Program-made: the position numbers and the translations under genes
Notes under the pieces: generated by a model
The model's database searches: none
Seen by the model: only the letters and a program-made list of their open reading frames with translations
What the model was told of the DNA's origin: nothing
In this document: piece after piece, positions 2,462 through 51,837 of the stretch
How the letters are laid out: each line of letters begins with the position of its first letter
Numbering within the stretch: position 1 is the first letter of the stretch
Assembly: GCA_028554795.2 (NCBI GenBank)
Contig: CM068829.1
Location: 135,632,579-135,696,578 of the forward strand
Source: Sinohyriopsis cumingii
Lineage: Eukaryota > Mollusca > Bivalvia > Unionida > Unionidae
DNA: 64,000 bases
Direction of reading: 5' to 3'

Positions 2462-2657
2462 CTTTCTATCCGAGAAAACTTTTGGATTGTTAATTTGAGT
2501 TTGCACATCCAACAGTGTCGGGGAAAGCCTTTGAGACAGGAGTGTTCTGAGAAATAATATTGTATATTTGATTGTAAACGAAACTGAACTTTATCTTTAA
2601 TCAGAGAAGCATTTAATTTATTGACGCTCGTTTTGGAACGTACTAGTATTTAAAATC

Positions 2658-4170
2658 ATGTCGTCCACTAGCCAATTGGCAGAGCTTGGTAAGCAATTGG
2701 GATATGAAGGGGAATCCTTACGACAGTTTATTAAGGAGGAACAAAATAGAGAACGAGAGCGACGCGTCGAAGAACGAGAGGCCGAAAAAGAAAGGTTTCA
2801 ACGCGAACAGGAGAGAATTCAATCGGAAAAGGAAGCCGAAAAAGAAAGGTTTCAACGCGAACAGGAGAGAATTCAGGCGGAAAAGGAAGCCGAAAAAGAA
2901 AGGTTTGAAGCAGAACGCGAGAAGTTAGAACTAAGCGCGCGCATTGAAAAGGAAAGAATCCAGGAAGAACGAGAGGCCGAAAAAGAAAGGTTTCAACGTG
3001 AACAGGAAATGGAGCGCGAGAAATTAGAGCTAGGCGCGCGTATTGAAAGGGAAAAGCTAGAATTAGAACGGTCTCGACTAGAGAACGATTGGGTATCGCG
3101 GCTGAGTAAATTCAAAAAACCACAACTTCCAGCATTCGAAGAAAATAAAGATGACTTGGATAGTTACCTGTTAAGATTCGAAAGATATGCTACTGCGCAA
3201 AAACTCAAAAGAAGAATGGGCATTACACCTTAGCACTTTGCTGAAAGGTAGAGCTTTAGAAGTATACTCTAGGATACCGAGCGCAGAGGCAACTAATTAC
3301 GATTTGTTAAAGGATGCATTGCTAAAATGGTTTGAACTTACTGAAAAGGGTTTTAGGAAAAAATTCCGATTTAGTAAACCAGACAAGGGAGAAAGCTTTG
3401 ACCAGTTTGTATATAGGATATCTAATTACCTATTCCGTTGGTTAGCTTGCTGCGGAGTCGCAAAGACTTACGATGCAGTATGTGATTTTCTCATCAGAGA
3501 TCAATTGCTAGCAGTATGTAGTAAGGAACTATTCCAATACTTAAAAGAGAAAACTATTAATAGGTCTAGTGAAATGGCTAAACAAGCAGATATATTCGCT
3601 GACGCACACGGAGGGGTTCTGAATGTGGTAGCCCGGGACACGAGGGGTCCCAAGGAAAGTAAGCAGGTGAATTCAGATAAGAGTAGTTTCGGGAAGAGTT
3701 TTCCACAAAACCGAAAGGGGGAATTAGTTAGGTCAGATCAGATGGGACCTAGAAGTCAGGATAGACAGAGAAAACAATGTTTTAGTTGCGGAGAGTGGGG
3801 CCATATGTCTAGTGCGTGTCCGAAGCGTAAGAGGGATTTACCAAAAACGGTAGAGGTCTCGTATATGGTAGGTTCGTCAGCTCGTGTAGAGAGCAATAGG
3901 AGTAGCTCCAATCAAAATGTGTCAAACGTAGCAACACAGAGTGAGGGGTTAGTGAATGGGGTTAGGGCTTCAGTACTTAGAGATACTGGATGTAATACTG
4001 TTGTTAAGCAGAGTCTGGTAAGGCCAGATCAATACCTTGGAAAAACAGTGTCTGTCAGAATGATGGATAATACTGCAGTACAGTTGCTGACTGCATGCGT
4101 CCATATCGAAACACCCTATTGGACAGGCGCAGTGACAGCGTGTTACATAAAGCGACCGTTGTATGATTAA
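2658..4170 (+). pseudogene. gag: Gypsy element 1 gag and protease (frameshifted)
   Basis: ATG at 2658 opens a Gag whose first about 140 residues are a highly charged coiled coil built from tandem EAEKERFQREQERIQ-type units. The frame is lost near 3190-3210 and resumes in another frame as a capsid domain. That domain includes GESFDQFVYRISNYLFRW and later FLIRDQLLAVC, the signature of SCAN-like Gag C-termini. A CCHC zinc knuckle (CFSCGEWGHMSSACP, 3778-3822) and an aspartic protease start (LRDTGCNTVV, 3977-4006) follow in the same frame. The ORF stops at 4170 inside the protease. The product would have packaged element RNA and processed the polyprotein. This copy is dead. Confidence 0.85.
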
Positions 4171-5600
4171 TTGTAGGTAACACAGAAGGGGTATTGAATC
4201 CCATAGCACCAGGGATAACAATGGTCGATGTTCCAACTTCCATGGCTATTGAAACTAGGTCGCAAGCTGCTGAGTGAGTAAGAAACCTTTGCCAAAGCTA
4301 AAAGTACCCGATGCTATACCAATGATAAAAAGGTGCATTAATTAAGGAGCAAAGAAGAGACGAGTCGTTGTCGGTAATCAGAAATAAAGCCGCGTCGGGA
4401 GAAGTCATGAAATGTAAAGGTGGCGGTTGCCATATATTTAAATATAACGGCAATATTCTACATAGGGAGCATACTACTCGTGAAGGCAGACGATTTACAC
4501 AGGTAGTAGTACCACATAACTATAGACCGCATGTGTTGAAGTTAGCACACGAGTCGACGATGGGGGGTCATCTGGGGTCTACAAAAAACCAAAGACCGAA
4601 AATTTATGGAATTTTACTGGCCAGGGGCTCACGGTAATTTAACTAGGTATTGCAGATCATGCGACATTTGTCAAAAAACGCAATATAAAGGGAGAGTCAA
4701 GCGCGTACCTATCGGTAAAAATGCCTTTGATTGAAACTCCATTCAAGCGCGTGGCGATGGATATTGTTGGTCCGTTATCACCTCTTACAGATCGTAAGAA
4801 TATGTACATCTTGACCATGGTCGATTATGCAACCAGGTACCCGGAAGCCGTCGCTCTACCATCCATCGAAACTGAGCGAGTGACAGAAGCCTTAGTGGAA
4901 ATGTTTAGTAGGCTGGGGATACCGGAAGAGATTCTGACAGATTGTGGGTCACAGTTCACAGCAGAACTCATGGCAGAAGTTAGCAGACTTCTATCGATCA
5001 AGCAATTATGGACCACTCCGTACCACCCAATGTGCAACGGGCTAGTTGAGAAGTTCAATGGAACACTCAAACAAATGTTGCGACGGATGTGTGCAGAACG
5101 TCCGAACGATTGGGACAGATATCTCCATGTAGTATTGTTTGCATGCCGAGAGATTCCTCAAGAGAGTCTAGGGTTTTCGCCTTTTGAACTCTTATATGGC
5201 AGAACGGTGCGAGGGCCGATGAAAATTCTAAGACAATTATGGTCGGATGACGAGACAGATGACGAGATTCGAACCACATACCAGTATGTGTGTGATTTGA
5301 AGGACAAGTTGAGAGAAACTTGTGCAATAGCCCAGAAACGTTAAGGCAAGCTAGCAGTCGCGCGGCTCGCTATTATAATTCAAAAGCGCGCGATAGAAAA
5401 TTCAAAAATGGGGACAGAGTTTTGGTTTTACTTCCGACTGATAGAAACAAGTTAATGTTACAGTGGAAAGGTCCATATACCGTCGTAGATGAAAAAGGAG
5501 GTATGGATTATACTATTGATGTAGGTGGAAAGTCCCGCATGTTCCACGCTAACTTATTAAAACGCTATTACGATCAAGCGAATGCAAATACAGAACAGGG
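4171..5600 (+). pseudogene. Gypsy element 1 integrase (broken)
   Basis: 4171-4360 is a protease-integrase linker with stops. 4368-4637 carries the first half of the HHCC zinc-binding domain (LAHESTMGGHLGSTKN), with a frameshift near 4610. The second half (CRSCDICQ) is in another frame. The catalytic core at about 4712-5344 has D (MDIVGP, codon 4760), D (LTDCGSQF, codon 4940) and E (LVEKFNG, codon 5048), a DD35E spacing. The frame shifts again near 5320-5345. The C-terminal GPY/F module (LQWKGPYTVVDEK) and FHANLLKRYYDQ complete a gypsy integrase. It lies before, not after, the reverse transcriptase. Confidence 0.88.
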
Positions 5601-6134
5601 AATTTTAAACGTAGTCGGTGTAGCCATCATCGAGGATGATGAGGAACAAGAGTCCGTTCCAGGACTTAATTTGAATGGATTACTGATTTACGAGATGGGT
5701 AAGACTGGAGTCAGTGAGTCCCGATTTGACGGAATATCAAAGAAAGAAGGCTCAGGATCTTGTTGACAAATACCCAGACGTATTTTCGGACAAACCCGGT
5801 CAGACAGATGTTCTAGAGCATAGAGTTAAACTTCCGTCACATGAACCATTTCGGATCAAGGGTTACCCTATGTCTCATGCATCCAGAGATATCATCGAGA
5901 AGGAAGTTGAAGAAATGCTTAAGTTACGAGTCATAGAGAAGTCAGACTCACCTTATGCATCGCCTGTCGTCCTAGTTTAAAAGAAAGATGGCATGAACAG
6001 GTTCTGCACTGATTTTCGCCAATTGAATACGCGAACGGTATTTGACGCCGAACCCATACCGGACGTAGAGAGCATCTTCGTTCGTATGGCAGGGCACAAA
6101 TATATTACGAAGCTGGATCTGACAATGGGATATT
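5601..6134 (+). pseudogene. Gypsy element 1 reverse transcriptase, N-terminal part
   Basis: The frame after the integrase leads into the RT N-terminus: YPDVFSDKPGQTDVLEH, then VIEKSDSPYASPVVLV. An in-frame TAA at 5978-5980 is followed by NRFCTDFRQLNTRTVFD and KYITKLDLTMGYC (motif A, LDLTMGY). At 6135 the coding sequence jumps into LTR sequence, so the YxDD motif, RNase H and the LTR start are all deleted. Gypsy elements normally run protease-RT-RNase H-integrase. Here RT follows integrase, as in Gmr1-like elements. Confidence 0.87.
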
Positions 6135-7160
6135 GTTTATCGTATTTGCAATTCAGTTTATTAAGATATAACCTAGGCAATGTAGTAACGAGTTAATTTC
6201 ATCTAGTCGCTATCACGACTAATTTCGAAAACATATTATGTATGTATTAATGTCATAGCATTACGTATATTTGTTTTTATTGCATAGCATTCCTATGTCA
6301 TACTTCGTACTTATCGCATATTCTTAAAGTAGTTGCAACAAAACCCATCCCAATTAAATTACACTATTGGAAAAGTGTGTTTATTTTCCATATTCAGCTC
6401 GCCGGTTATGAGCAGCCGGATGGGCTTGTGAATACCATGACGTCTGGTGTACCATTACTAGCACAACCCAACAATTCAGTGCCAGCGTACGGGTACAAGT
6501 GCGGAGGGGAAAGTGACCGTGCCAGAGAGAAGGCCCTGTCAACGTATATCTTCCAATCAAGTAGTGTTTTGACTACAAGTAAAGGACAATGACAAGTAGT
6601 GTATTGACTACAAGTAAAGTACAATAACAAGTAGTGGTTTGACTACAAGTAAAGTACAATAACAAGTAGTATATTGACTACAAGTAAAGTACAATAACAA
6701 GTAGTGTATTAACTACAAGTAAAGTACAATAACAAGTAGTGTATTGACTACAAGTAAAGTACAATAACAAGTAGTGTATTCACTGCAAGTAAAAAGAACA
6801 ATAACAAGTAGTGGTTTGACTACATGTGAATTACGACAGTAGTGTCTGACTACATAAATGTTTGCAACCAGTAGTTGATTATATGGGTTTGCAACAAGTA
6901 TTTGTTTATATGAACGTTTGCTAGAGATATTTGTGCACATGAAGTTTACATGGAGTTTCTAGAACTTTTTGACTACTTGAATGTGACATAGTAGTCGAAG
7001 TATATTTCATCTGTGTTTTATATTCATTTTATATGTTTCTGTGTTATTTTCATATCATTAGTACCAGTGTTTAATATATTGTCATTTGCCATTCACGAAC
7101 GTGTTTATTGTTTCTTTAAAATCCTGCCCGGTCTCAAAGGGTCAGCTCGACTACGTTACA
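6135..7160 (+). repeat. 3' LTR of gypsy element 1, 5'-truncated
   Basis: Nearly identical to 1538-2435 apart from indels: eight instead of five 35-bp units, and a stretch near 6485-6500 (acgggtacaagtg) absent from the 5' copy. It starts within the LTR, so about 375 bp are missing at its left side, fused directly to pol. It ends ...ctacgttaca at 7160, as does the 5' LTR. Confidence 0.9.
6558..6830 (+). repeat. 35-bp tandem repeat in 3' LTR (8 units)
   Basis: Same unit as at 1941-2110 but eight copies. The copy-number difference between sister LTRs indicates slippage or unequal exchange after or during insertion. Confidence 0.92.
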
Positions 7161-37135: not shown

Positions 37136-37519
37136 CTAGTTTTGGAAGGTACCGTCATAATTGTACCGTAGTTTAATGGGTGGAAAGGCCATTGAAAGGT
37201 AAGGGCAGTGCGGAGACCATCGAGTATGTTCCAGAATAGCTGAATCTTTGTAGATACATAGATCCATTCGTAACTTCAGTCCGCAAGCGAAACACTGTAC
37301 TTCGTATCCCAATCCTGACTCGGGTCCGAAGTAGACAAATCCTGTTCTAGCTAAAACATACGAAGAAGGTAATCCTTCCCTATCCGTAGGCCATTTTTGA
37401 AACGTGTCCAATCGACGGGCACAATCACAATAGTCAGGTAAGAAGACTGGAAAATGGTAGGGTTTGAACTTGGAGTTCTCACTGGATTTCTCACTTGATT
37501 CTTGCTGCGGCGAAGTCAT
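37136..37519 (-). CDS. Single-BIR (IAP-like) protein, intact
   Basis: A 127-codon intact ORF. Residues 36-106 form a BIR domain: RLDTFQKWP (36-44), LARTGFVYFG (56-65), zinc ligands C76 and C79 (CFAC), H98 (LEH) and C105 (PHC). BIR proteins bind caspases or IAP antagonists and suppress cell death. A low-complexity Ser/Glu N-terminus precedes, and no RING follows. It starts about 15 nt after the end of the polymerase frame on the same strand, so it belongs to the virus-like element, not to a host multi-BIR gene. IAP-like genes are known accessory genes of adintoviruses and related elements. It is the only undamaged ORF of the block. Confidence 0.82.
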   Translation of the reverse strand: MTSPQQESSEKSSENSKFKPYHFPVFLPDYCDCARRLDTFQKWPTDREGLPSSYVLARTGFVYFGPESGLGYEVQCFACGLKLRMDLCIYKDSAILEHTRWSPHCPYLSMAFPPIKLRYNYDGTFQN

Positions 37520-41712: not shown

Positions 41713-42175
41713 ATGGAAGAGACTACCAAGATCGAACGTTTCATCAGAGCTTTGCGAGGGGTCATTAGAAAATTCTCTTCAGACCAGCCGAGGGACTACT
41801 CTCCTTCCTTTCAAGATAAAAGTCAAGATACTTGCTATATCTGTCAGAAGAAAGGGCATTGGTCTTCAGAGTGTCCAGACCGTCAAAAAAGAAAAAAAAG
41901 GGGTTAGAAGAGACAAAAGTCAAGATACCTGTTATTATTGTCAAGAAAAAGGACATTGGTCACCAGACTGCCCAAAAAAGAAACAAGAGGAGTCAGAAGA
42001 AGAGAGGGATTCTTCAGAGGAAGAGGAAGAGGAAGAAGAAGAGGAAGAAAACAGACAGGTGAAGAAAAAGAAACAGGAGAAGAAAAGAAGGGAAGAAAGT
42101 GAAGAGGAAGAGGAGGAAAAGACTATGACGGTGAAGAAATTAAAAAAACAGAGAGTGAACAATGAGACAGAATAA
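41713..42175 (+). pseudogene. Tandem CCHC zinc-knuckle protein with acidic/basic tail, frameshifted
   Basis: ATG at 41713 opens METTKIERFIRALRG-like N-terminal sequence. A first knuckle follows (CYICQKKGHWSSEC), then an A-rich run and a TAG at 41905-41907. In the +1 frame a second, clearly duplicated knuckle follows (CYYCQEKGHWSPDC), then a long Glu-rich and Lys-rich tail ending at TAA 42173-42175. The one-base frame change sits in a run of A, so it may be a recent indel or a slippery site. CCHC knuckles bind single-stranded nucleic acid. I do not know this gene in Polintons. A polyadenylation signal (aataaa, about 42235) follows. Confidence 0.6.
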
Positions 42176-42240: not shown

Positions 42241-42369
42241 TTAATTATAAAAGGTAAGTGTCTTTGGGTTTTGATTTTAAAATAAGAACCTACACTCACG
42301 CACACTCATACACAGACAGGTACTATTGGGTAAAATGGTTTTTATTAGTTATTGGCAATTGAAAGCCTA

Positions 42370-42407
42370 TCTCTTTTCGAGAGACGTGGATGGCCCTGAA
42401 AAGGGCC
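42370..42407 (-). terminator. Histone-type 3' end signal (stem-loop plus HDE), minus strand
   Basis: On the minus strand, 42407-42392 reads ggcccttttcagggcc: a perfect 6-bp stem with TTTC loop, preceded by caaaaaa and followed by atcca. About 13 nt further, ctcgaaaagaga (42383-42370 region) resembles the histone downstream element that pairs with U7 snRNA. Only 23 nt separate the upstream TAA (42430-42432) from the stem. Confidence 0.75.
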
Positions 42408-42429
42408 TTTTTTGGTGTAAGGGGTGAGT

Positions 42430-42994
42430 TTAAACAATCAACTTTAACTGTCTTAAGCCTTTGCCATGGCCAAGGCCTACTTCTGGACTGCGTACTGTTG
42501 ATGATGATTTCGTTGAAATCACTAAGGATGGTGCAGTAGGCGTAGTCACAGGGTTGGAGTGTTTAGCTTGGGAAGGTCGTATTCTCTTCGGCCGTAATAA
42601 AGAAGTCTGATACATCTGTTTCAGACTTCTTAACTAAAATGTCTAACAGTACCGTGACCGTTTGATTTTGACACCCTTGTTTCTTTGCTGCTGCGTCTTC
42701 TTCTTCTTGTTTTTTTCTTACCTCTTCTTCTTGCTGCTGTTGCTGTAGGAGAAAAGCTTGTTCCGCTTCCTTTTGCTGTTGTATAAATTTCTCCAATTCT
42801 TCTTTCTGTCTCTGTCTAAAATTTTCCATGTGCGGTAATGAAGGAGAAGGTGACGAAGGTTCAGGAACAAATTCTTGCAAGGTAAAAAAATCCACAAAAT
42901 CCCAATTCACCTCTTCTGAAAGTAAGTCTGGGTTCCCTTGGGTAGTCTCCACCATCAGTGCACCCAAACTGATCGTTTTCTGAGTTTCCGTCAT
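42430..42994 (-). pseudogene. Gln/Glu-rich coiled-coil protein, one frameshift
   Basis: The start chosen is MTETQKTISLGALMVE at 42994, because the minus-strand TATA box (43041-43050) leaves no room for the ATG at 43027. After VNWDFVDFFTLQEFVPEP comes a Gln/Glu/Lys coiled coil (about residues 60-110) and SETDVSDFF near 42605. The frame then shifts. The other frame continues as LLRPKRIRPSQAK to a Ser/Thr/Lys-rich basic C-terminus and TAA at 42430-42432. No family recognised. It is followed at 23 nt by the histone-type stem-loop. An N-terminal acidic/aromatic part with a basic tail would suit a virion or DNA-associated protein, but that is a guess. Confidence 0.5.
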
Positions 42995-43040
42995 GTTGAA
43001 AAACTGTCGCTTAGATTGACTACGCACAGGCGCTAGCGAA

Positions 43041-43050
43041 TCTATATAGA
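43041..43050 (-). promoter_or_regulatory. TATA box of minus-strand coiled-coil gene
   Basis: tctatataga, symmetrical, about 50 nt upstream of the ATG at 42994. Confidence 0.6.
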
Positions 43051-43055
43051 CTATG

Positions 43056-43063
43056 TGACGTCA
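43056..43063. promoter_or_regulatory. CRE/ATF palindrome
   Basis: tgacgtca, a perfect CRE, in the middle of the divergent promoter. Confidence 0.6.
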
Positions 43064-43078
43064 CAGACTACTCTCTTC

Positions 43079-43127
43079 GGATTGGACGTGGGCTGACTGA
43101 ATTTTGTAACGCGTGTTTGGATTGGTC
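43079..43127. promoter_or_regulatory. Two CCAAT boxes (inverted) in divergent promoter
   Basis: ggattggacg (43079) and ggattggtca (43119) contain ATTGG 40 bp apart, the NF-Y site in reverse. Paired CCAAT boxes are typical of divergent histone gene promoters and of cell-cycle genes. Confidence 0.55.
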
Positions 43128-43161
43128 AACAAACTCAATCCGTTTCAATCCTTCCTCCCCC

Positions 43162-43169
43162 TATAAATA
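43162..43169 (+). promoter_or_regulatory. TATA box of plus-strand small gene
   Basis: tataaata about 53 nt upstream of ATG 43215, with the likely transcription start near 43193. Confidence 0.65.
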
Positions 43170-43214
43170 AGTACAGTTCACTGCATTCCTTCACCTGTTA
43201 CTCAGCACCCCAAC

Positions 43215-43449
43215 ATGTGGACCGATGTACAATCTTTAACGCTTGTGTCTTCGATGATGTTCCGGACGGACATATCAATGTATGTCCGATCCAACTGGAC
43301 AGTTATCCACAGGACAGACACCAGCCTGTGGATGCGAAGAATCTTATGTGGAGCATCAAGGATGCCTCAAAAGAGTCTTAATCTATGGTCCTGCAGTCAG
43401 GCACAGCCTAAGGTCAAGAAGAAGATGTCACAGATGCCCTTTATGTTAA
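43215..43449 (+). pseudogene. Small Arg/Cys-rich protein gene, frameshifted
   Basis: ATG at 43215. The most protein-like reading changes frame soon after the ATG and again near 43378. The middle frame reads CTIFNACVFDDVPDGHINVC then PIQLDSYPQDRHQPVDAKNL. The last frame reads LIYGPAVRHSLRSRRRCHRC and PLC, ending at TAA 43447-43449. The basic RSRRRCHRCPLC end suggests nucleic-acid binding. I do not recognise the family. The TATA box upstream and the histone-type stem-loop 24 nt after the stop define the transcription unit well. Confidence 0.5.
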
Positions 43450-43472
43450 GGGTATATTAACATAAAACCAAA

Positions 43473-43510
43473 GGCCCTTTTCAGGGCCATTCCTATCTCT
43501 CGAAAAGATC
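43473..43510 (+). terminator. Histone-type 3' end signal (stem-loop plus HDE), plus strand
   Basis: 43473-43488 reads ggcccttttcagggcc, preceded by aaaaccaaa and followed by attcc. ctctcgaaaagat (43497-43509) follows at about 10 nt. The whole about 60-bp block is an inverted copy of 42353-42415, that is, the same signal in the same orientation relative to its own gene. Stop-to-stem distance is 24 nt. Confidence 0.78.
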
Positions 43511-43594
43511 TTGACTTTCAACTGCCTACCCCTTTTTTTATTTTTTTGTTTAAAAAAATAATAAAAAAATAGAGACCCCTCCCTGTTTCAATTT

Positions 43595-43880
43595 TCGCCT
43601 GTTCCATTTTCATAGACCCATCAGGTCGGGACCTTATTAAAATAGGGTCCCGACCCTGTTCCATTTCCCCTAGTCCCAAGACAGTCCCACGATTTATTCC
43701 CCATGTTCAATTTCCCTTGTCCCTAGAGTGAATAGTTTTTTTTCTTTCTCCCATGTTAAATTCCCCTTGTCCCTAGAATGGATATTTTTTTTTCTCCCAT
43801 GTTAAATTACATAGTCCCCAGAGTGGATATACCCTTTTTAACATGGAAGTTCCCTAGTCCCTAGACCGTCCCTATTCACT
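43595..43880 (+). repeat. ~47-52-bp minisatellite, possible element terminus
   Basis: Four to five units share cccatgtt(a/c)aattt/ccc, ttgtccctagartg and gatattttt (starts near 43600, 43653, 43697, 43749 and 43795). It sits at the outer side of the virus-like block next to the last gene, where a terminal repeat would be expected. Confidence 0.65.
43624..43656. repeat. Perfect hairpin
   Basis: ggtcgggacc and ggtcccgacc are exact inverted repeats separated by an AT-rich loop of about 12 nt. Confidence 0.85.
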
Positions 43881-44880: not shown

Positions 44881-46576
44881 CTTATAGTGGAATGCTGGTA
44901 TACTTTATGATCAAGAAGGATGGGTTGGGGTATGCATGTTGCATCTGAAAAAAGTGATGGAATTTTTGTTTACATAATATTTTAGTCATACAATATGAAT
45001 CATTTTCTATAGATTTAAGATGTATCAGATCAAGTTAAGAAAAATCATATATTCTGTTTCCTGGGAATGTACTAAAATTCACTGTTATTGTTTGATTTTT
45101 TGGTAGTAAGCTTACTTGGTATTTTTTTCTTTTTAACTTGAATACCTAATTTGTTAACATCCTATTCTAAATCTTCAGAGTTCTGTCTATTAAGTGACAA
45201 CTGTTGATACATGTAGGGAAGTTTTTGTTTATATCTTTTGATTTTTGTGATTCTGGAAGTTGCAGTATTTGTTGTTGTATTATAACCATTTCAGTAATTT
45301 AATGAATGCAGAGTATACTGCTCTATAAATGAAATTTAAGTGAAAATAATGTAAAAGTATGTTTCACTGCAAATATAAATTGTTTAAAATAATATATCAT
45401 TTATCATATGACTATTCAATTGTGGTAACTAGTATTCCATCCAATATCTATATATTAAAATATGTCTTTTCATACAGCTGGTGATCATTTAGATACAAGT
45501 CCAATTGAACATAATCAAATTATCAATGCAGGTGTTTTTATTAGTAGTAGTATTGCAAGTATAAGTGTTAGTATTAAGATTTCATATACAGGTATGATAA
45601 GTGTATCATAATGTTTAAATGATGCTCCTTGTTACAACATAAAATATGTTCATTGAAACAAATGGTTCACTGGTAAATTGGCAGCAAAGGTCTTCACTGA
45701 ATTATGTTGCATAAACTATTTTACAATAAAACATATATGATGCATCTCAATTATGATGAATGTGAGGAGGAGGATTAATAATAATGCAATTTAAGTTATC
45801 TTCATAACATAAGTTCTAGCAGATGTGTAATTTTTATGTGGTTCATCATCAGTTTGAAACTGGTCTGTGATTTCTGGATCTGGACATACCTGGTCCCCTG
45901 CTGTTGTGCTGCTATGGTCTTTACAGTTCATTAGGATATCAGTTACACTTGGTTTACATTTAGAACCCCATGGGATGGAATGCCCAGTTTGAAACTGAGA
46001 GAATGGTTAATTATCCATAATATAACTCCTGCAGTTATTATTAGGTTTGATATCAAGGTCTTTCTTTAAAAGCTTTTCAACTCAGGTTCTGTTCTACCAT
46101 ACAGATAAATAAAGTCAAATTCAAGGCTTTCAGATTTGTCCAGTTTGTTTCATGTGTTGCAGCAGACAGACTGTATATTGCCACTGTACCATATAAATAT
46201 CAGTGCTTAGTCTGCTCTCAGTTGCTGTGGTTTGATTAGTTACAAGTGTCATCACATGTGACTAATTATTGACCAATGTAATGAAACTTGTATAATTAGA
46301 AGGCTGTATTTAAAAACTCTAAAGATCTTAAAAAGAAAATTGGATCGGGGTAAGTAAAACCTTTTACTTTGACCATTTGGCTAGAAAATAATTTTCAATA
46401 AGTTTAAATTGGATAATAGTAATATAATAATTAATTACACAAATCAGAATAAAAGCTATTTGCATATCCCCTTACAGCTGTTGCTTTTTCATAGTACTAA
46501 GTAGAATAAAGTATAGTTAAGACAGATAAAGAAATATCCCGTCATATATACCTTACATCAAATAAAGAAACTCAAG
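44881..46576. other. Non-coding; end may be LINE 5' UTR
   Basis: AT-rich, no genes. The last few hundred bases before 46577 may be the 5' UTR of the I-like LINE. A boundary could not be set. Confidence 0.45.
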
Positions 46577-47926
46577 ATGGATAACAACAAAATTAATGTC
46601 ACATCATCAAATAGTTATCTCAGCTGCCTGGTCAACCTAAAGGCAGATAAACTAAGGCAAACTTACTCCGAAGCAGTCTCATCCCCCCTAAGAGAAAAAC
46701 GACAGATACAGTTCTTAACGCCAATTTTCAACTCGACCCCAACTGACTCGATGAGTAGACTCTACCTGTCACCAAGCGTAAACGAGAATGTGGACAATCT
46801 ACCGAGTAACCGCAAAACTACATCCGACATGAGTACCCAAACTGAGGAACAATACTCAACAAGCACAAAAACAACCCAGACCACGCTGGTTAAAAACACT
46901 AGCAGCCAGGGGACTCAAACTGAGAACCTACTAGATGAAACAGAACGCCCTCACCCTACCACAAATAAAGCAGTCACACACGACTCAACAAAAGGTAAGA
47001 ATAATAGGAAAACCAAATCCCAAATACCAGTTAGAAAGAATAAGGAACACACTAACTGTCAATACAAGACCCAGCAAGCCGGTTATGGACAACGAAACAA
47101 AGTCAGCTAAAGAGACAAACACCAGGGAAAAAAGACCAGTCTGCAAAATATCCAAAAGAAGAAACACCCCGCTGAACTGACTCTCTTCGTCAAGGGAGTA
47201 AATTCTAAAATAACGAAGTTAGCCTTTAAAACCATAGCATGGCAATTGAACAAACATCACCAAGGAGAATTCACGCTTAAAAGCACTAGAGACGACTTGC
47301 TGATAATCAAATGCACCACTGAACAACAGATTGCCAAATATATGGAAATTGAAAGAATAGGCCAAATAAATGTTCAGGTCACTAGACACAACAGAACAAA
47401 ACAACACATAGACCCAAACCCACCAAAAACACACAACAAAGGAGTCATATACGTATCAACTCAAAATAAAACCAATGAAATAGTAGACTACATAAGGAGT
47501 AAAGGACAGGAAGTAGAGAAAGCAATCCGCCTAAAAACAAGAAGGGGAAAGGATAGCACTGCAGTGGTACTCTTTTTTAAGGGCGCCACCCCAGAAACTA
47601 TCAAAATAGCCGAAAAACTCGAGGCTAAAAAAATTTTTGCTTTCAAAAACAAACCACGGTTCTGTGGCAACTGCAAAAATTGGGGGCATTACTCTAAGAG
47701 TTGCGGAAACCTATTCCGGTGCAATCAATGTGGTCTTCACCACCCAGACCGGAAAACATGTAGCGCCACCAATCAGCACTGCGCTAACTGTAGTGGTAAC
47801 CACAAACCAAACCACGCAGAATGCCCCAGGGCTCTTAGAGAAGCCCTAATAGTCGAATATATGATCTGCCATGGGGTAAACTATAAGCAGGCCAAAACAA
47901 AAATCAGGATACCAAAAACAAAATAA
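46577..47926 (+). pseudogene. I-clade LINE ORF1 (Gag-like), nearly intact
   Basis: ATG at 46577. The N-terminal third is Ser/Thr/Gln-rich with repeated STQTE, TTQTT and GTQTE motifs. A frame change near 47045-47105 and a TAA at 47108-47110 break it. From about 47180 it continues as a nucleic-acid-binding domain, then three Cys/His knuckles at 47659-47829 (CGNCKNWGHYSKSC, CNQCGLHHPDRKTC, CANCSGNHKPNHAEC), and stops at 47926. The ORF1 protein coats LINE RNA. The layout (ORF1 with three CCHC, ORF2 with EN, RT and RNase H) is that of I-like elements. Confidence 0.85.
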
Positions 47927-48013
47927 ATAGGTAGCACCCTCACTGGTAGGAAACACGCATAAAATGAAAACAACAGTAAATTAAACAAACTATTAAGACT
48001 TTTTGCACTAGAG

Positions 48014-51000
48014 ATGGATTCCAGAGCAGAAATCAAAATATGGCAATGGAATGCACGCGGCCTTAGGGCCCACGCTGACCAACTAAATAACAAAATACTT
48101 GAACAGGAAAGAAAACCAGATGTTATATGCATACAGGACACCCACCTAAATGATACCTCACGTATCGCAAACATCATAGGCTACAACACCAAATACCTAA
48201 AGCATCGATCCCCCACAGCAAGAGGAGGGGGGTTAGCAACCTTTGTTAGAGATGGAATTACATCAGAAATGCATAAATTAACAGATAGTAGACCGCCCAA
48301 TGACTTCGAAATACAGATAGTCAAAATAACCGCTCAAACTAAGCAGGTACTAATCGTTAACCTCTATGAAACAAATGAGCAGCGCAATTTAAGTGCAGAT
48401 GAAACAATCAAAATGATTAAAGACTGTGGAGAATGGGTGGTAATATGCCGGGACTTCAATGCGCACAATGAACTATGGGGGAGTCAAAAGACGGACATTA
48501 AAGGAAAAATTGTAGAAAAATGGGCACAAAAATGCAACTTAGTTTTTCTAAACAACGGAATGCACACCCGGACAGATGACAGAACAGGCCACACATCAGC
48601 AATAGACCTATCTCTATGCACACCAAGATTAGCAGGCATTTCTGATTGGCAAGTTGATGAAAGCGACCCTATGGGAAGTGACCATTACCTTATAAATATA
48701 GAAATACAAATTAGAATACCTCAAAATAAAGCGTCCTTCACACCAAGATGGAAATACGAACAGGCCAACTGGATTAGGTTCAAACAGATAGGTGACTCAA
48801 TCAACCCAGAAACCATATATCACCGGGACATTGACACCTTTAATGACAAATTAATAGAAACCATTAACACAATGGCCCAAGAAACAATTCCTAAAACTAA
48901 AGGAGTAGCACCCAAACCCACGGTGCCCTGGTGGAATAATGAATGTAAAATAGCAATTAAAGAGAAAAAAAGAGCTCTAAACAAATTCAAAAGAACTAAA
49001 AACAATAGGGACTTTAACTACTACAAGGAAAAGGAAAAAACTGCCAAACAAACTATTATGATAGCTAAACAAAACTCATGGAGAGAATTCTGCTCAAAAC
49101 TAGATATTAACACAAAATCGAAGGAGGTGTGGCAAAGAATTAAAAAAATGAGAGGCAAAACTAAATCAATAACCCCCAACATACCTGGACAAAACAACAA
49201 ACATAAGGCAGAATTATTCGCAAACTATTTCGCCAACATGTGTAGCAATACCAACTTAGAGGATAAGTTTAAAAATCATAAAAGGCAATTTGAGGAAAGC
49301 AACTCTGACAACATAAAGGAAGCAGGAAATAATGACGGCCCACTAAACCTTCCGTTTACAGAAGCCGAATGGAGAAAGGCCCTCGCCGGCAAAAAGACCA
49401 CATCCCCCGGGGAGGACACTTTGGGGTATGAAATGTACAAGAACCTACCCAAAAAACTTTTCACAATTGCACTTAACCTCATTAATAAAATATGGGAAAC
49501 CGGTACCATACCTATAAGATGGAAAAAGGCAGTAGTGGTCCCGATTCTTAAGCCTGGAAAACCCTCAAGCGATATAAAATCATACAGGCCCATATCACTA
49601 ACAGACAATATATGTAAAATAATGGAAATTATGGTAAACAACAGGCTGAAATACCATTTAGAAAGCAAAGGACTACTAGCTAATACACAGAGCGGGTTTC
49701 GCAACTACCGAAGCACAATAGACCAACTCATGAGACTAGAAACCGCTGTCAAATTAGCATCTAGAGAAAAATTTTAAAAATCCAGATATGTTACAGCCAT
49801 CTTCTTAGACATGGAAAAAGCATATGATCTAATGTGGACTAAGGGACTGATAAGTAAACTTAAACCATACGGAATAACTGGCAATATATACAAATTTATT
49901 GCTAACTTCCTAACCGATAGAAAGATACAAGTCAGACTAGGACAAGACTACTCCGAACGATACAAACTGGAAAATGGCACGCCACAATGAAGCGTGATCA
50001 GCCCAACTTTATTTAATATAATGATAAACGACCTGGAAACAGCGGTAAAACCCAACCACCTTGACTTATCCCAATTCGCCGATGACAGCGCCGTATGGAA
50101 AACTGGCAACCCGGCCAGCAGAGAAACGACCAAGCACCTACAAAAAGGACTAAACGATATAGGAAATTGGACAGATAAATGGGGATTTAAATTGTCACCT
50201 CTAAAAACAGTAGGCATAGTTTCCAATCCGGGGGGTGGCCACCCCCCACCCACTCCAAACTTAACCCTAAAGGGGGTACCCATCAAATTCGAAAAACAAG
50301 CAACACTCCTAGGTATGGTATTCGACCACGAACTCACGTGGGCAGCTCATATCCAAGAACTCGTAACGAAGTGCAAACGAGACATCAACCTCCACAGAAA
50401 CCTCAGAGGGGTGAATTGGGGGGTTGATCAAAAAACACTCGTTACCCTATATAGAGCACTTATAAGAGCAAAATTGGACTACGGTTGCCAGGTATATGGA
50501 GCGGCGAACGCCACGTTACTAAAGAAACTAGACACAGTCCAATCAAAAGCGCTAAGGGTATGCACCGGCGTCCTAAATGGTACCCCCACACAAGATATCT
50601 TAATAATAGTAGGAGAACCCCCGCTAGACCTAAGGCGGAAGGAATTGATGCTGCGATACTCGACTCGAATATCAATACACCAACCCAACCACCTCACGCT
50701 ACAAGCCCTCTTAGCATGCGACAAACCATTCGATACAAAAGGAAAAAATAAAAAAATACCTAGTGGGAAAATAATTATAGAATTAAAAAGGAAATTTCAA
50801 ATCGCAAATATCAACCCAGAAAAAATAAGGTACTACCCAGACCCCCCGTGGACCTGTCCCACACCACAAATAGATCTTAGCTTACGTAAACTAGGACAAA
50901 AACAAAATGACCCGATAGGACTAAGAGCATCAATACTAACGTACATTGACAACAAATACGAGACATACACGCAAATCTTCGCAGATGGATCAAAAACCAA

Positions 51001-51837
51001 AAATCCAAATAAAACTGCAGCAGGGATAGTGATCCCAAAATTAGATGTCACCGTTGGAAAAAGACTCCCAGACCAATGCGCTATATACACGGTAGAATTC
51101 ATGGCAATACTAATGGCATTAACATACATCAAAACATACCCCACAACTAAGGCAGTCATTCTAAGCGACTCTTACAGTGTACTACAATCGTTAGCAACGG
51201 ACCAATCCAAGAGCAGACCTAATATGATTAATCATGCAAGATCGCTACTTAAAGAGATTGAAAAAAACAACAAACACGTTGAATTCGTATGGATACCCTC
51301 TCACATCCATAATCCCAGGCAATGACAAAGCAGATGCAGAAGCAAAAAACGCCACAAACGAACCAAAAGCCCAAAATATAGCATACAGCGTCACTGAAAT
51401 CAATAACATGGGACAAGATCAATGACATGTGGCAAGAGCTATGGGAAAAATCGGATGCAAACAGTCTAATACACACGATGATGAAAAAAGTAAGTAGAAA
51501 AGTCGAAAGTCCGACCTTCAAAAATCCATACGATATAACAATAATAAATAGAATAAGAACAGGTAAAACACTATTGGCAGGATGCGCAGGAAAACACATA
51601 AAAAGGGGACCAACCGAAAACTGCCCCTACTGCCCAACTCCAGAAACAATCGCACACTTAATAAATATATGCCCCAAATACAACCAGGAAAGGGCCGAAC
51701 TAAAATCTCAACAGGAACAAATAGGAGAACGGTGGACATACCCGGAGTTACTTGTGGCAAAAAACAATAACATAGGAATGACCTATAATAACATCATGAC
51801 ATTCATTAACAAAATAGGCAAAAGGGGACAAATCTAA
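48014..51837 (+). pseudogene. I-clade LINE ORF2 (endonuclease, RT, RNase H)
   Basis: ATG at 48014. An APE endonuclease domain comes first: IWQWNARGLRAH, VICIQDTHL, GGGLATFVRD and GSDHYLINIEI. The RT has KPSSDIKSYRPISLTDNICK, TAIFLDMEKAYDLMW (motif A), NGTPQ...SVISPTLFNI and SQFADDSAVW (FADD catalytic). RNase H follows (QIFADGSKTKN, YTVEFMAILMAL, VILSDSYSVLQSL). A C-terminal CCHC-like region (CPYCPTPETIAHLINICPKY) ends at TAA 51837. Lesions: TAA at 49775, TGA at 49988 (in GTPQ-SVI) and a frameshift near 51310. It nicks the target and copies its RNA. The few lesions suggest a recent insertion. Confidence 0.92.

Follow-up and report, generated by a model that had tools for sequence, protein, structure and literature searches.

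The closest described counterpart of the locus reported here is the 3′ end of replication-dependent histone mRNAs (RF00032), in which a short 3′ UTR, a hairpin, a cleavage gap and a downstream purine element (HDE) are the features recognised by SLBP, the U7 snRNP and CPSF73 (PMC9756948 and PMC7026596, in the parts available). In mouse, the CUCUUU of U7 pairs with the purine core AAAGAG, which in H2a lies at 17 nt, as reckoned from a construct that has it at 21 nt with a 4-nt insertion (available part of PMC7026596). An AATAAA has been described as a back-up signal for histone genes (PMC1924863, in the part available).

A few infectious agents have features related to this system. Loop 27 of Potato spindle tuber viroid, an infectious RNA, was modelled on the histone stem-loop and has a U-A closing pair, but it belongs to a plant viroid, does not have the extended stem needed by SLBP, and functions in replication and trafficking rather than at 3′ ends; its authors found no SLBP homologue in the hosts (accessible part of PMC6827988). 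The frameshift element of SARS-CoV-2 is reported to be bound by SLBP, but here the virus has an RNA genome and the interaction concerns frameshifting, not 3′-end formation (PMC12166091). Adomaviruses and tailtomaviruses are animal DNA viruses with histone-related features, their ‘Histoid’ genes, whose protein resembles histones, whereas in the element described below it is the mRNA end that does; the accessible text of the same paper (PMC11071296), which deals with adintoviruses, mentions histone-like proteins and, when checked for histone and stem-loop terms, no stem-loop. In the literature searched, the histone stem-loop is treated together with viruses in an mRNA vaccine paper and a viroid paper, and in none together with Polintons or transposable elements. 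The remark of a sequence-only reading of this DNA that such ends had not been described in Polinton-like elements therefore holds for the literature searched, subscription papers aside, and histone-type 3′ ends on several genes set the element apart from known Polintons and adintoviruses within that literature.

The DNA analysed, referred to as the window, is a stretch of 64,000 nt from the bivalve Sinohyriopsis cumingii (contig CM068829.1); its features are listed in Table 1. With a probability of roughly four in five, it contains a Polinton/Maverick-type element, in a broken copy that was amplified recently, whose family ends four small gene types (A–D) with a complete histone-type 3′ cassette and does so via the SLBP/U7 pathway. 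The cassette has the hairpin sequence and size, the A-rich 5′ flank, the HDE distance and the stop proximity of RF00032, and shares its form with the histone genes of the host itself. Unlike histone genes, the genes that carry it encode no histone and belong to a virus-like element, and the cassette is known from DNA sequence.

Table 1. Features of the window around the two hairpins (positions in the window, with strand).
Feature	Position	Strand	Remarks
BIR (inhibitor-of-apoptosis) domain gene	37136..37519	-	
Broken DNA polymerase B (PolB), PF03175	37535..41456	-	
CCHC zinc-knuckle gene, frame-shifted	41713..42175	+	AATAAA 60 nt behind stop
AATAAA 3′ of block A; may serve as a back-up for polyadenylation	42341..42346	-	
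Block A, 57 nt: hairpin, cleavage gap, HDE, CTTTCAA tail	42354..42410	-	inverted copy of block B
GAAAAGA, purine element downstream of hairpin A	42372..42378	-	overlaps AAAGAG, the mouse HDE core (PMC7026596, available part)
Hairpin A, 6-bp stem, TTTC loop	42392..42407	-	22 nt 3′ of gene A stop; RF00032 42367-42412, 35.2 bits
Gene A, predicted long-helix protein, basic C-terminus	42430..42994	-	frame-shifted; open frames 42563-42994 and 42430-42615
Presumed promoter region from which A and B diverge	42995..43214	.	contains TGACGTCA, a pair of ATTGG motifs and TATA-like boxes facing A and B
Gene B, Arg/Cys-rich end in relatives	43215..43460	+	window copy scattered over frames
Block B and sequence behind	43464..43731	+	similar sequence behind gene C/D in 4/12 such loci
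Block B, 57 nt	43470..43526	+	inverted copy of block A, 84%
Hairpin B, 6-bp stem, TTTC loop	43473..43488	+	RF00032 43468-43513, 33.5 bits
Downstream purine element of B, GAAAAGA	43502..43508	+	start 14 nt after stem
AATAAA behind block B	43560..43565	+	

The two hairpins are letter-identical over 16 nt and each is oriented as its adjoining gene, with the perfect stem and the loop that the sequence-only reading had described. RF00032 matches both end to end, hairpin A above and hairpin B just below the cut-off of 34 bits (E 9e-8 for A and 4.1e-7 for B, over 3.5 kb searched), and gives no further match in the window at E ≤5. A pattern search that tolerates up to two mismatches finds two sites in the window against a mean of 0.02 per shuffle (100 shuffles), and a stricter search for SLBP-type hairpins returns the same two, with none in 60 Markov-simulated windows. 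The downstream gaaaaga claimed earlier is present at both hairpins at the same distance from the stem; AAAGAG starts 16 nt behind hairpin A, and AAAGAT occupies the same place behind hairpin B. The blocks are, as proposed, inverted copies of each other, in which AAA plus hairpin (19/19) and GAAAAGA (7/7) are identical and the remainder agrees at 22 of 31 positions, while the 30 nt flanking the blocks on either side agree at 10/30 and 11/30 only. A chance inverted repeat was considered as the origin of the two blocks, and a bacterial-type terminator as a reading of the stem-loop; both were rejected.

The spacing from stop codon to stem, given earlier as 23 and 24 nt, needs some correction. It measures 22 nt for gene A, and for gene B either 12 nt, from the stop of an 81-aa ORF, or 23 nt, from a stop in another frame. 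Relatives of gene B have an ORF of 66–78 aa with an Arg/Cys-rich end and a stop 21–24 nt before the stem at 11 of 15 gene-B loci; a twelfth locus has an 80-aa ORF with a 7-nt gap, and the remaining three have no such ORF. The 81-aa frame of the window is therefore probably non-native, and comparison with the relatives suggests that the stop 23 nt before the stem is the native one, which makes the earlier figure for B approximately right for the native gene. The AATAAA behind the blocks lies 84 nt from the stop of gene A and 100 nt from that of the 81-aa ORF of gene B.

Genes A and B diverge around 220 bp, in which TGACGTCA, the ATTGG pair and the TATA-like boxes are what we take to be promoter motifs; H2A–H2B gene pairs are likewise divergent. 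Gene A has no Pfam match over the cut-off. Its predicted structure is one long helix of low overall confidence (pTM 0.25), and the best PDB match is weak (E 0.064). A protein search returned 16 relatives of gene A at E ≤10, 15 of them below 1e-6, on contigs of at most 1.9 kb. In one relative (P0055) the reading frame continues past the usual stop, and the extra C-terminal residues track the 3′ UTR, hairpin and HDE of the window (alignment score 64; none of 5000 shuffles scored above 35); its tblastn match reaches position 42352, where the inverted repeat ends. These residues imply A, not U, at the loop-closing position, so P0055 supports conservation of the block but not of every pair. An A-U in place of the U-A closing pair is reported to lower SLBP binding without abolishing it (accessible part of PMC6827988).

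The Polinton-like identity proposed by the sequence-only reading is supported on two sides. The window has a BIR gene and a broken PolB with PF03175 matches of 3.8e-16 and 6.3e-14; neither an integrase nor a chromodomain was found in this copy, and RF00032 detects no histone hairpin behind its PolB, BIR or CCHC genes. A relative of 27 kb on another contig, read as six separate pieces, has PolB-like sequence together with an rve integrase (1.3e-12) and a chromodomain (3.5e-8) in two overlapping frames of one piece (L097), and this combination argues for Polinton/Maverick membership. The PF03175 PolB, the integrase with chromodomain (in the relative), the inverted terminal similarity, the BIR gene of the window copy and the distance of about 25 kb between outer hairpins are in keeping with Polinton/Maverick elements and adintoviruses. 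The same piece contains what we take to be capsid- and penton-like ORFs; these gave no Pfam match.

Genes C and B stand at opposite ends of the 27-kb relative, which also has a nested stretch that looks non-LTR-like by eye. It contains exactly two RF00032 matches over the cut-off (44.5 and 43.5 bits), near its ends and pointing outward, and the end pieces show inverted similarity over 103 nt at 89%. Block B of the window with the sequence behind it, which recurs in some gene C/D loci (82.7–84.4% identity over 132–278 nt), is probably a terminal inverted repeat. In the relative, gene A lacks a separate hairpin, and its open frame continues into PolB. Another gene A relative (P0065), on a short public contig, is also joined to PolB sequence, so both genes are tied together in another copy. 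A single open frame of 703 aa runs from gene A into PolB at L099:1417-3525 (-); since P0065 is joined at another point, this is perhaps a recurrent fusion. Upstream of gene C and on the same strand, L094:1829-2290 (-) holds a second ORF, 150 aa long from its ATG, with an Arg-rich stretch; Rfam finds no histone hairpin belonging to it.

A genome search with RF00032 scored 75 places out of 589,472 first-look candidates, and all 75 exceed the cut-off (34.5–45.6 bits). The 35 places that were examined, namely the best 30 and five more, are all copies of the element family; the hairpin is present in related elements. Of these 35 loci, 22 include a match to gene A and 12 lie behind gene C or D; the remaining one (L106) looks by eye like the gene B type. 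Taking the best 30 alone, 15 hairpins follow gene B, three follow gene A and 12 follow gene C or D. By eye, these last 12 loci split into seven with gene C (WRNRRN-like end), four with gene D (WKKWRS-like end) and one ambiguous, and 11 of them have at least 150 nt in common with the twelfth (L068), which forms one end of the 27-kb Polinton. The histone-type ends first noticed on two genes extend in this way to four gene types. No match to histone H4, H3, H2A or H2B was found by tblastn in the best 30 loci and the five more. An RF00032 match alone is no proof of a histone gene, given that the 35 examined, the best 30 included, were element copies.

The cassette is conserved among these copies. 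A genome search with the gene A protein gave 147 matches without a stop among the best 150 of 32,066 first-look candidates, and 20 gene A copies were taken from these 150 with the hairpin ignored in the selection. The hairpin is letter-perfect in 19 and has one base changed in one, a count that does not amount to 20 independent observations, the copies being closely related to one another; GAAAAGA is found at 14 nt in all 20. A second comparison used the partner hairpin, i.e. the hairpin at a gene A or B locus other than the RF00032 target. There are 18 such loci, two of which (L076 and L090) gave no partner, and the 12 C/D loci are without one. Of the 16 partner hairpins, 12 are letter-perfect and 13 keep all six pairs (one of these by means of a G-U); a pair is broken in the other three, and none of the 16 falls below five pairs. 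They equal the hairpin of the window at 251 of 256 positions, compared to 1352 of 1486 in the upstream gene end (Fisher p 1.7e-5), and the sequence downstream, within reach of local alignment, does so at 1168 of 1254 (p 0.0013); both p values are indicative only because the copies are not independent and the downstream figure is bounded by the local alignment.

The histone genes of the host allow a direct comparison. A genome search with histone H4 gave 119 candidates, all scored, and 114 matches, mostly in repeats of about 8.3 kb. One such repeat contains five hairpins, four behind H4, H2B, H2A and H3 and a fifth that presumably belongs to H1. Four have the stem GGCCCT/AGGGCC, and the fifth carries a compensated pair (GGTCCT/AGGACC). 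At all five, GAAAAG begins 14–15 nt past the stem (14 in the element), and the 5′ flank is AAAC in four of five and AAA in the element. The likeness to host histone 3′ ends thus extends to the stem, the spacing and the downstream core. The best 30 element places score 43.5–45.6 bits with RF00032 and the host histone hairpins 35.0–39.4. Behind the HDE, L115 and L118, which belong to the set of 20 gene A copies, have TCAATTTTGCC in common with host H2A, which would fit an extended U7-pairing region. A genome search for U7 snRNA gave three weak candidates, the best at 29.3 bits against a cut-off of 34.

The window copy belongs to a recent expansion. A genome search with block A (81 nt) scored 40 of 650 candidates, all 40 at 100%, and eight of these places, compared as 3-kb loci, are 99.35–99.58% identical to the window. 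All eight have the broken gene A and B frames of the window and carry both hairpins (block A was used for finding them, block B was not), so the window lies in a recently amplified broken unit. Two other chromosomal copies match sampled stretches of the window between 28492 and 60678, mostly at 98–99.9%, and samples closer to the window ends show little or no match; judging by these samples, the unit is at least 32 kb long. The matched span includes the Polinton remnant and a Jockey-type remnant at 46517-51834, a non-LTR element that we take to be Jockey-like and whose domains for endonuclease, reverse transcriptase and RNase H are spread over several frames; about 64 extra bases are present at 46527 in seven of eight sampled copies. 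Elsewhere in the window, at 2625-5763, there is an LTR-retrotransposon remnant with a zinc knuckle, an integrase and a weak SCAN-like match under the cut-off (1.8e-4), flanked by direct repeats (1535-2435 and 6132-7160).

Searches outside the host genome returned no close counterpart. Viral contig collections scanned for related DNA yielded no relative, and other genome contigs scanned likewise yielded none. A phage contig with a bare 20-mer (L001) has no Rfam match at the cut-off (13 of 23 IMG/VR loci run), and at 22 contig places with the downstream motif no 6-bp stem was found, the best having five pairs. A tblastn search of phages with a gene A relative (P0054) and a protein search with part of gene B, in the probably non-native frame, gave no match. 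One IMG/VR contig has a Type II hammerhead ribozyme at L002:653-721 (-).

If the SLBP/U7 reading is correct, host SLBP would bind the hairpin of the element, the U7 snRNP would pair with the GAAAAGA element, and CPSF73 would cut a few nucleotides behind the stem. The resulting mRNA, without a poly(A) tail, would be stabilised and translated during DNA replication, and the AATAAA behind the blocks may act as a back-up signal. We infer the use of host SLBP and U7, the tail-less ends and the S-phase timing of genes A–D from the sequence of the cassette. Polyadenylated ends are possible too, because an AATAAA stands behind both blocks, and it is conceivable, if unlikely, that most transcripts are polyadenylated there and that the hairpin is an SLBP-dependent element of stability or translation. 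In human, both routes are in use at some histone genes (PMC9756948, available part), but in C. elegans, whose histone genes likewise combine hairpin and AATAAA, most of the histone mRNAs terminate just past the hairpin rather than at the AATAAA (PMC1924863, available part); moreover, the HDE would be superfluous.

There is little chance that the cassette is a captured piece of a host histone 3′ end that is propagated with the element as a relic and has no function in it. Its stem, spacing and HDE do resemble those of the host, TCAATTTTGCC is shared with host H2A in two of the 20 copies, and relics would appear conserved in element copies as numerous and young as these. However, the cassette stands close behind the stops of four gene types, each time in the correct orientation, its stem is better kept than the flanking coding sequence, the 35 examined loci have no histone coding trace, and the block is readable in P0055, a relative from another source. 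Least probable is a function in the DNA itself (replication, packaging or end recognition) with a superficial likeness to histone ends: blocks B and C do lie near element ends, with inverted similarity there, but block A is internal, and an HDE at a fixed distance, equal to that of the host histone genes, has no role in such a model.

Genes A–D encode lysine/arginine-rich, partly helical proteins, and as a guess a role of proteins A and C/D as DNA-binding or core proteins is thinkable because A is helical and basic in a low-confidence model and C/D are basic by sequence. Tentatively, and at less than even odds, a Polinton lineage may have put small basic proteins, perhaps DNA-condensing or histone-substituting ones, under the histone mRNA pathway, so that their output would be proportional to DNA synthesis; copies with the signal may even be more numerous than the histone genes of the host that have it, and may be a load on the SLBP/U7 machinery. 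If SLBP/U7-dependent processing holds true for the family, a DNA virus could link its expression to S phase without regulators of its own, and the element and its host would offer a natural experiment on the co-evolution of U7, SLBP and their targets.
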